64,000 bases of DNA from Smittium mucronatum (lineage: Eukaryota > Kickxellomycota > Harpellomycetes > Harpellales > Legeriomycetaceae). Under the pieces are notes generated by a model. It made no database searches. It was not told the DNA's origin and was given only the letters and a program-made list of their open reading frames with translations. Below, in pieces: positions 47,308 through 60,110 of the stretch; the first letter of the stretch is position 1, and every line of letters begins with the position of its first letter. Both the position numbers and the translations under genes were made by a program. Location: contig LSSL01007791.1 of the NCBI GenBank assembly GCA_001953115.1, positions 1 to 64,000 on the forward strand, given 5' to 3'.

Positions 47308-47896
47308 CCTTGCCGTGGTTTAGGGGCTTATAGTGTACTTTTCGAAGTGCACTAAACTAAAATTTCACACAGCGTTGTACCATTCCTGGTTGGGAGTAGT
47401 GGAGAAAGCAATTCCAGAAGAGGACCATTTCGGAACAGAAGGAACCGATCGTTTAGAAAAGCTGAGGCATATTCTAGTGCAAAAGTCCAGCGTTCAACAG
47501 TCGGACGGGTCTCAGCGTCTAACAGCTATTTTTAGGAAAGCCATGTCGATCAATCCCACGTTTGGGTAGGGTCCTAATTTTATTAATTCTGTTAGAAGTA
47601 GGCTCTGACTAGGGGCTCAGTAACTTCAATAAACAATAGTTCATTGAAAAAGAGCTTAATTCATGACTGCACGTAACCTCAGTCATCCAGCCTAATTGAA
47701 GCAATGACAGGGGGGTATTATTGTTGGTAAATTGAATGCTTATCCCTTAGTTACACAGCCGATAGACCGGCAGAGGGGCTTATTGTATTTGGGATAATAG
47801 TCTTTTCTATGAGCTTTTTTCTTTTTTTCAAATTTTTTTAGTATAGTTTTTAATGATGTTATCTTACAATAAAATTCCGTGATACAAAAAATAATA
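47308..47896 (+). mobile_element. SINE copy A, 5'-truncated
   Basis: About 590 nt, matching copies B and C from the motif CGTGGTTTAG to the terminal ATTCCGTGATACA. The sequence is much richer in G and C than its surroundings. Flanks are TTC-T(10)-CCA at 47292-47307 and TTC-T(7)-CCA at 47897-47909, a target-site duplication whose T run differs in length. The tRNA-like head of copy C is absent, so the copy is truncated at the 5' end. An open frame at 47333-47569 lies inside but is broken by stops at the same place in copies B and C, so it is not a conserved protein. Three blocks vary between copies (around 47400, 47455 and 47490), as in an old multicopy family. Confidence 0.82.
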
Positions 47897-50733: not shown

Positions 50734-51356
50734 ACCCTTTTTTTTATCACGGAATTTTATTGTAAGATAACATCATTAAAAACCACACTAAAAAATTTTT
50801 AAAAAAAGAAAAAGGCTCATAGAAAAGACTATTATCCAAAATACAATAAGCTCCTCTGCCGGTCTATCGGCTGTGTAACTAAGGGATAAGCATTCAATTT
50901 ACCAACAATAATACCCCCCTGTCATTGCTTCAAGTAGGCTGGATGACTGAGGTTACGTGCAGTCATGAATTAAGCTCTTTTTCAATGAACTATTGTTTAT
51001 TGAAGTTACTGAGCCCCTAGTCAGAGCCTACTTCTAACAGAATTAATAAAATTAGGCTCCTACCCAAACGTGGGATTGATCGACATGGCTTTCCTAAAAA
51101 TAACTGTTAGACGCAGAGATCAATCTGACTGTAAAACGCTGGTCTTTTGCAATAGAGTATGTCTAAACTGTGCTAAACGACCAGTTAATCGTGTTTCTAG
51201 ATAATCCTTCTCTGGAATCGCTGTCCTCCGAATCGCTGTGCGTTGTCTCCACTACTCGTAACTTAGAATAGTACAACAATGTGTGAAAATATGGTCAAGC
51301 GTACTTCGAAACGTACACTATTAAGTTTCTAAACCACAAAAAGGTATTTCATTATT
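50734..51356 (-). mobile_element. SINE copy B, 5'-truncated, inverted orientation
   Basis: Minus-strand copy of the same family, about 620 nt, with the 3' end ATTCCGTGATA near 50745-50755 and the 5' end at AATAATGAAATAC. A perfect 11-nt direct repeat, TAAAAATAATT at 50723-50733 and 51357-51367, flanks it. Long stretches of the 3' half are the same as copy A (for example the segment with CTCTGACTAGGGGCTCAG), while the 5' half carries a small insertion shared in part with copy C. It begins slightly upstream of copy A but still lacks the tRNA-like head. Confidence 0.85.
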
Positions 51357-59100: not shown

Positions 59101-59370
59101 AGTGTTTTTTTTTCATGGTAACAGCTAGTATCATATGGAAATATTTTAAATTGATCAATTAATTTATTTTCAAAGTTCGTTGCATTGGTGGTTTGTTTAT
59201 TTTATAAATATAGCATATTTTAACATAAAAAAAATATGAAAATTCACTGCCATATACATTTTTTAAGATTAAAATTATTTTTAATTTATTATTGGATAAT
59301 TTTTTTCCATAATTACTTGTCTATTATTAATAAAAAAGGTAGAAATTTTGGTATATGGTTATTTTTTGTT
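56169..59370. other. AT-rich gene desert
   Basis: No open frame of coding-like composition, RNA gene or family repeat was found between the tRNA pair and SINE copy C. Confidence 0.5.
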
Positions 59371-59383
59371 GAAATTTTACAAT

Positions 59384-60097
59384 GAGTTTCTAGCTCAATT
59401 GGTTTACGCAATTCCTATGAGTTGCGTGTTCAATCGACTTGATTCCCAGAAATTAAACTTACAAAAACTAAGTTTTGCTTTTTTCTTCTAATAATGAAAT
59501 ATCTTTTCGTGGTTTAGGAATTTAATAGTGTACTTTTCGAAGTACACTAGACCAAAATTTCACATATATTGTACTATTATTGGTTGGGAGTAGTGGAGGC
59601 AGCGCACAGAGATTCCAGAGGAGGGCCATCTAGAAACAAGAGTAACCTATCGTTTAGCACAGTTTAGACTTATTCTATTGCACTAGTCCAGCTTTGATAG
59701 TCAGATTGATCTCTGCGTCTAACGGTTATTTTTAGGAAAGCCATTTCGGTCAAACCAACGTTTGGGTAGGAGCCTAATTTTATTAATCCTGTTAGAAGTA
59801 GGCTCTGGCTAGGATCTCAGTAACTTCAAATAAACAATAGTTCATTGACAAAGAGCTTAATTCTTGACTGCATGTAACATCAGTCATCCAGCCTACTTGA
59901 AGCAATGACAGGGGGGTCTTTCGGTTGGTAAATTGAATGCTTATCCCGTAGGTACACAGCCGGTAGACCGGCAGAGGAGCTTATTGTATTTGGGATAATG
60001 GTATTTTCTATTCGTCTTTTTCTTTTTTTAAAATTTTTTTAGTATGGTTTTTAATGACTTTATCTTAAAATAAAATTCCGTGATAAATTTTTTTTTT
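59384..60097 (+). mobile_element. Full-length tRNA-derived SINE (copy C)
   Basis: A 714-nt element. Its first ~70 nt are tRNA-like: a perfect pol III A box TAGCTCAATTGG starts at element position 8 (59391), as in a tRNA gene, and a B-box-like TGTTCAATCGA follows at 59427. The body from about 59490 matches copies A and B, and it ends at ATTCCGTGATA plus A/T residues. The flanks GAAATTTTACAAT (59371-59383) and GAATTTTTACAAT (60098-60110) are a 13-nt target-site duplication with one mismatch; since the left copy abuts the tRNA-like head, the head belongs to the element. No open frame is conserved among copies, so it is non-autonomous and would depend on a LINE with the same 3' tail. It carries mutations, so is probably old. 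Confidence 0.82.
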
Positions 60098-60110
60098 GAA
60101 TTTTTACAAT

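Follow-up and report, generated by a model that had tools for sequence, protein, structure and literature searches.

A probable one-off chimeric retrocopy within an abundant non-coding retroposon family of Smittium mucronatum with a predicted HDV-like module at its 5' end

The DNA analysed here, referred to as the window, covers 64,000 nt (positions 1 to 64,000, forward strand) of contig LSSL01007791.1, C2951 in our numbering, of the Smittium mucronatum assembly GCA_001953115.1, which comprises 73.8 Mb in 2,957 contigs. Smittium is described in PMC5954228 as a harpellalean insect-gut fungus. The window has a GC content of 24.5%, and a mitochondrial uS4 gene also lies within it, which matches a Smittium mucronatum protein with 100% identity over 98% of the query. 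The insertion studied is composed of a head and a body between direct repeats, and two further copies of the body are found nearby. The features are as follows:

47314..47884, + strand: third copy of the body, 5'-truncated and headless
50743..51356, - strand: second copy of the body, headless, with its own 14-nt direct repeat
59362..59383, + strand: left target-site duplication (TSD), 22 nt, of which the 13 nt initially annotated are the right part
59384..59484, + strand: head, putative retrocopy of a ~101-nt Pol III-like small RNA
59391..59402, + strand: A box of the head
59428..59436, + strand: B-like box of the head, 37 nt downstream of the A box, at head position 45
59455..59475, + strand: 3' hairpin of the head
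59479..59484, + strand: T6 of the head
59485..60088, + strand: body, a single member of a high-copy family of non-coding retroposons (its last base could equally belong to the duplication)
59485..59563, + strand: predicted HDV-like ribozyme module at the family 5' end, decayed in this copy
59569..59611, + strand: 43-nt unit, single here and in tandem (twice) in loci L033 and L037
60069..60074, + strand: AATAAA; in most of the other copies seen, ATTCCGTGATAC and then an A-run come next
60089..60110, + strand: right TSD

The initial annotation described the stretch from 59371 to 60110 as a complete tRNA-headed SINE of 714 nt between two 13-nt duplications. The left 13-mer, GAAATTTTACAAT, is present at 59371-59383, adjoining the head; the right one, GAATTTTTACAAT, is found at 60098-60110 with one mismatch, and the 3' tail ahead of it is indeed common to other copies. 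A 13-mer pair of such quality near such spacing was obtained in 18 of 20,000 random placements within the window. The match grows leftwards to 22 nt, TTTTTTGTTGAAATTTTACAAT (59362-59383) against TTTTTTTTTGAATTTTTACAAT (60089-60110), with 20 of 22 positions identical and a score of 16, the 13-mer alone scoring 10. Among 3,000 random pairs placed 705 apart, none reaches 16, three reach 13 and 48 reach 10, and the highest score in a cross-copy control of 462 mismatched flank pairs is 13. Given this extended match, the T-run ahead of the right repeat is probably for the most part duplication, and the length of the insert is corrected from 714 to about 705 nt (59384-60088). The same repeat test applied at the start of the body (59483 in the script, with 6 nt slack) yields a score of 6, within the control. 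The insertion is hence real and complete, and since its TSD brackets head plus body, both most likely entered as one insertion.

Concerning the composition of the family, the annotation had proposed a SINE of tRNA head, body and 3' motif, and had named a start of other copies at 59384 as its test. Searching the assembly with the 714-nt query gave 41 rows (the best 40 of 2,318 candidates scored), of which 38 were kept after removing the window locus, its duplicate on contig C2884 and one short fragment. None of these 38 rows, from the best 40 of 2,318 candidates, reaches query positions 1-95 (the head being 1-101): the match begins at 96-126 in 22 of them and at 186-224 in the other 16. With the head alone as query, three places were recovered, namely the window locus, its C2884 duplicate and a site on contig C146; a 33-nt pattern from the 3' part of the head, with up to three mismatches, identifies genome-wide the same three places, that of C146 without a body. 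Contig C2884 duplicates the window contig from about 47469, and two ~3.6-kb stretches compared between them are identical, so that the head counts include one assembly or haplotype duplicate. Against three places for the head pattern stand 579 for the 5' end of the body, and the idea that the head recurs throughout the family was rejected, the 38 other rows being headless.

As to the nature of the head, it does carry the A box TAGCTCAATTGG at its position 8, as annotated, together with a B-like box and acceptor-like pairing; its tRNA likeness ends there. ARAGORN and the Rfam tRNA model make no tRNA call on it, and Rfam as a whole offers no known family, with sub-threshold chance matches only. 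Compared with the tRNAs of the genome (46 distinct ones from the loci analysed, which do not cover all isotypes), the likeness is not significant: the best score of the window head is equalled by 185 of 500 of its own shuffles and that of the C146 head by 41 of 500. A tRNA origin is thus unsupported by ARAGORN, by Rfam and by the shuffled comparison. Across the window, A and B boxes spaced as for Pol III are paired 12 times on one strand and 3 times on the other. The solo head at C146:86886 is 90% identical over positions 1-101, with no body behind it; it has an A-like box with one mismatch and no B box, and ends in T7. No direct repeat surrounds it (score 5), as expected of a resident gene. 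The two heads differ at 10 of 99 aligned positions, nine of them between positions 19 and 53, and this clustering suggests that the parent of the window head may be a paralogue of the C146 sequence and not that sequence itself. Both fold better than their shuffles, with z-scores of -3.29 (window) and -2.80 (C146). From its A box and T-run, the head may be taken as a Pol III-type small RNA.

The body, in turn, belongs to a large family. Allowing up to three mismatches, its 5' end is found at 579 places genome-wide and its 3' end at 1,579, and the same patterns read backwards give 0 matches. By eye, the upstream sequences of the copies cease to resemble each other at CCCCTAAGAGTG. Direct repeats scoring at least 10 and ending within -8 to +6 nt of the body start are present in 13 of 22 copies, as against 4 of 462 mismatched flank pairs. 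The 22 copies tested are the matches beginning near the 5' end, window locus and duplicates excluded; two of them (L012 and L033) are without the first nucleotides, L027 has four extra, and the right flank of L005 ends at the contig end. This fixed 5' boundary, with direct repeats at it, places nucleotide 1 of the family at window position 59485. The family is a ~600-nt non-coding element with the fixed 5' end CCCCTAAGAGTG, AATAAA, an A-tail and direct repeats in many copies. Dispersed copies have differing TSDs, many of ~14-22 nt, and a 3' A-tail, as characterizes a non-autonomous poly(A) retroposon. Coding capacity is absent from the majority sequence, whose longest stop-free stretches are 61 codons in sense and 94 in antisense. 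With one mismatch allowed, it contains four A-like boxes (at 26, 108, 181 and 197) and a single B-like box (at 275), none of the former lying 25-70 nt from the latter.

The window copy has decayed but retains its entire 5' end (CTTCTAATAATG); it differs from the majority of the 22 other copies at 66 of 601 positions. Only 14 of these differences are private to it, and 36 are common to the copy at 50743-51356; with so few private differences, the insertion would be younger than a divergence of 11% suggests and derive from a diverged subfamily. It should be noted that the three copies within 13 kb (47314-47884, 50743-51356 and 59485-60088) have many derived substitutions in common: pairwise, 36, 32 and 18 are shared, which may reflect either an old subfamily or local gene conversion.

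Positions 1-79 of the body can be drawn as a nested double pseudoknot, P1-P2-P3-P4, with P1 starting exactly at the end of the element. P1 is CCCCUAA/UUAGGGG (7 bp), followed by J1/2 GA; P2, a 7-bp pseudoknot drawn by hand, is GUGAAAU/AUUUCAC; P3 is ACC/GGU with L3 UUGCCGU; J1/4 is CUUAA; and P4 is UAGUGUACUU-UUCG-AAGUACACUA (10 bp), followed by J4/2 GACUAAA. P1.1 is drawable only as a single G-C. J4/2 follows RACYAAA, with a candidate catalytic C, then A, and 17 of the 19 aligned copies retain this C. The RNAfold minimum-energy structures of L006 and L044 give P1, P3 and P4 (z-scores -2.33 and -2.62), that of L008 departs in P3, and that of the window copy in P1 and P3.

A fold descriptor, composed after the sequence was seen and with wider ranges, was applied to copies and shuffled sequences. 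In its strict form it matches at, or 1-2 nt from, the start in 7 of 19 copies (L005, L006, L008, L013, L018, L027 and L044, with L013 and L018 in altered registers); elsewhere it is found once in those loci and at one place, as two overlapping starts, in the window. Anchored at nucleotide 1 of the 88-nt majority sequence, it is matched by 1 of 100,000 dinucleotide shuffles, and with any start from 1 to 15 by 2 of 20,000. Covariation was assessed on 19 of the 23 aligned copies, leaving out L012, L024, L033 and L038, in which the 5' end is either truncated or made up of flanking sequence. In this alignment 93.0% of pair cells are paired, against at most 48.2% with the partners slid, and the letter-shuffling control also gives 93.0%. 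Pair covariation in these copies is not above its shuffled control (score 0.076 against 0.073), and changes on both sides affect one pair (two cells), against a shuffled mean of 1.2 and 1-2 pairs in slid structures. As the copies are decayed retrocopies, the case for a ribozyme is carried by architecture and position and not by covariation. According to PMC4908430, cleavage by HDV-like ribozymes takes place at the first nucleotide of P1, which makes the coincidence of element end and P1 start telling. This anatomy suggests that the first 79 nt of the body would form an HDV-like self-cleaving ribozyme, with a cut directly 5' of nucleotide 1. Rfam shows no match to module or body at E up to 5 in eight loci.

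Regarding the machinery that could mobilize the family, at least 151 RVT_1 matches are present in the genome, LTR and LINE types together (best 150 of 605 candidates scored), and the two LINE-type ORFs scanned both contain an endonuclease and a reverse transcriptase (RT) domain. Locus L077 (C2526:28000-34000, minus strand) is an L1-like LINE whose ORF1 and ORF2 are both open and whose tail is A12. Its ORF1, which has 103 genome matches, contains a CCHC knuckle at 20.2 bits, just below the Pfam cut-off of 20.8, and its ORF2 has endonuclease, RT and zf-RVT domains. A poly(A) retroposon could use a LINE of this type, and no sequence link to the body was found: in eight RT loci, with the low-complexity filter on, no LINE shares the body ends, nothing being obtained at E up to 0.05. 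In two loci with the filter off, the best match of body and LINE (E 0.002 over 30 nt) was judged an AT-rich chance similarity. The contig stops at or before the 5' end of L077, and the 83 nt of 5' UTR read contain no ribozyme module. In loci L080 (4260-5501) and L082 (3996-5000), a second ORF with GWYW..QPAKFVL near its start follows a single-ORF RT element (~1000 aa), and that of L080, when scanned, has no Pfam match. The stretch GCCATTTTTTGTACCATCGCCCCTGA..GGGTTAA, probably another repeat family, occurs both near the downstream flank of L077 and in L084, upstream of the solo head.

The junction of the insertion is end to end, with the T6 of the head directly before nucleotide 1 of the body. 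Two unrelated transcripts are fused, direct repeats surround the fusion, and each part is also found alone, as the solo head of C146 and the solo bodies. In other copies, T-runs before nucleotide 1 are not in excess (18 of T-type against 16 of A-type), hence joins of this kind are not recurrent. The locus is probably a one-off chimeric retrocopy within a large, non-autonomous, LINE-dependent retroposon family with a predicted HDV-like module at its 5' end, the so-called tRNA head being the passenger of one insertion. The predicted 79-nt ribozyme would trim the element from longer read-through transcripts by a cut 5' of nucleotide 1, and proteins encoded by a resident L1-like LINE with a poly(A) tail would copy the polyadenylated body RNA into the genome. 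At this locus the cDNA would have reached the exact 5' end of the body and run on into an unrelated small RNA of Pol III type (~101 nt), entering it at the 3' U-tail, either by an end-to-end template jump or by copying of a ligated RNA; the TSD attests the joint insertion, and the manner of joining is our interpretation.

Different readings of head and junction have to be weighed against this one. Were the family a true tRNA-headed SINE, the window would hold a rare complete copy and the others would have lost their heads by 5' truncation. The A box at position 8, the B-like box 37 nt downstream and the TSD at the head start all fit such an element, as does the tRNA likeness of the C146 head, reached by just 41 of 500 shuffles. 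However, the headless copies mostly start at CCCC with direct repeats (13 of 22) instead of at scattered truncation points, the head pattern has its 3 places against 579 body 5' ends, and the sole other head, in C146, is without a body. We regard this reading as very improbable, and as a description of the family it is refuted, unless the unassembled portion of the genome harbours many headed copies. Only slightly less improbable, and still very unlikely, is that the head represents a small-RNA gene or pseudogene already resident at the site, behind whose terminator the body inserted, the repeat at the head start being due to chance. A solo head without a direct repeat does exist in C146 (score 5), the sequence is AT-rich, and the score of the 13-mer alone is reached by 48 of 3,000 random pairs; yet the score at the head start is 16, against a maximum of 13 in the 462 control pairs and 0 of 3,000 random pairs, and there is no repeat at the body start. 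The initial annotation saw a genuine complete insertion but read a single chimera as a family.

The remaining alternatives accept the retroposon and concern its 5' end. In one, the module has no ribozyme function, transcription begins at the fixed 5' end, and the role of the hairpins lies in RNA stability or packaging. That covariation is not above its control, that Rfam gives no match, that P1.1 is weak and that the strict fold is present in 7 of 19 copies all speak for it; the nested double pseudoknot with P1 exactly at the element end, matched by 1 of 100,000 shuffles, and a majority sequence devoid of an A+B box pair at 25-70 nt speak against it. Active fungal HDV variants, moreover, have C-G at the cleavage site (PMC5640933), and because such variants are proven this reading loses a little weight; we consider it unlikely. 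A comparable, low likelihood is assigned to a chimera made by ligation of the small-RNA 3' end to the 5'-OH that a ribozyme leaves on the body RNA, followed by reverse transcription, in place of a template jump. A ligation model exists for U6-L1 chimeras. The join runs exactly from T-run to nucleotide 1, as a ribozyme-made 5'-OH would favour, and fungal HDV ribozymes leave such an end (PMC5640933); against this, end-to-end template jumping yields the same product, and the event is single, with no sign of recurrence. A bolder version would have an abundant, recently active retroposon freed from host transcripts by its ribozyme, whose 5'-OH would let a cellular RNA ligase weld small Pol III RNAs to nucleotide 1, the head being a record of ligation and not of a polymerase jump; to this we give somewhat less credence still. 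The chimeric retrocopy with a passenger head is thus preferred.

Beyond the single insertion, the larger finding is the body family, which is probably ribozyme-released. For fungal HDV ribozyme variants, PMC5640933 gives 230 representatives from 26 species; a C-G pair at the cleavage site is typical of them, and cleavage that leaves a 5' hydroxyl was shown for constructs from Penicillium chrysogenum and Aspergillus niger. The Smittium module resembles them in its fungal host, its predicted HDV-like fold and its C-G pair at the predicted cleavage site, the two published ones cleaving in vitro; it is without their loop E in P4 and their extra nucleotide between P2 and P3, as far as these are described in PMC5640933. 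The main text of that paper contains no match to 'transpos', 'repetitive' or 'Smittium', and no retroposon link is seen in it. A cold-tolerant fungus is mentioned in connection with HDV ribozymes in PMC3774820.

Ribozyme-headed non-autonomous retroposons are, as reported, known from trypanosomatids (PMC4035085, PMC8256844) and from insects. In the former, NARTc, RIME and SIDER carry 5'-end ribozymes of the HDV-like L1Tc type, and the SIDER and L1/NARTco ribozymes have a +1 C (PMC4035085). The Smittium element differs from these in its fungal host, in its repeatable 43-nt unit, in that no LINE sharing its 5' module was found and in that its ribozyme is predicted. R2 SIDEs (PMC3414825) and R2 ribozymes (PMC3774820) likewise offer a short LINE-dependent element with a 5' HDV-like ribozyme, predicted in the Smittium case; in R2 ribozymes, conservation is described as largely confined to the catalytic C plus four further positions (PMC3774820). 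In contrast to these R2 systems, the Smittium element is dispersed and A-tailed, has a +1 C and shows no R2 remnant.

Chimeras of WEIRD, Mg-SINE and MGL with direct repeats of 10-20 nt are known in Magnaporthe (PMC2104539), and the WEIRD-Mg-SINE/MINE retrocopy is likewise fungal and bipartite, with an unrelated non-coding RNA 5' of a SINE. According to the same source, the Mg-SINE is 5'-truncated there and WEIRD measures 1113 nt, whereas in the Smittium chimera the SINE-like body is joined with its full 5' end and the partner is a T-ended RNA of ~101 nt. The literature searched, mostly open-access, contains no report of a fungal high-copy retroposon with an HDV-like ribozyme as its exact 5' end; the parts, taken singly, have precedents.

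Classical tRNA-derived SINEs are non-coding and LINE-dependent. The Smittium family is likewise non-coding and presumably LINE-dependent; an A box is found in the head of the window copy alone, and the family itself differs from such SINEs in having no head, no A+B box pair and an A-tail after AATAAA. The chimera is hence a warning that an A box and direct repeats in a single copy do not define a tRNA SINE. If the module does cleave, at least some of the HDV ribozymes of fungi would gain a function, and the family would offer natural variants in large number.

A final point is related to the assembly. A published survey of this genome, in which repeats were annotated by RepeatMasker and Tandem Repeat Finder with the fungal sequences of RepBase as reference, reported a repeat content of 2.94% (PMC5954228). 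Among the 38 rows (from the best 40 of 2,318 candidates), the body copy runs into a contig end in 16, mostly at the 43-nt unit (L019, L023, L025, L028, L030-L032, L034-L037 and L039-L043). The retroposon family appears to break the assembly; longer unit arrays or assembly collapse may lie at these ends, and in several of these rows further sequence of the 43-nt unit is present at the contig edge.
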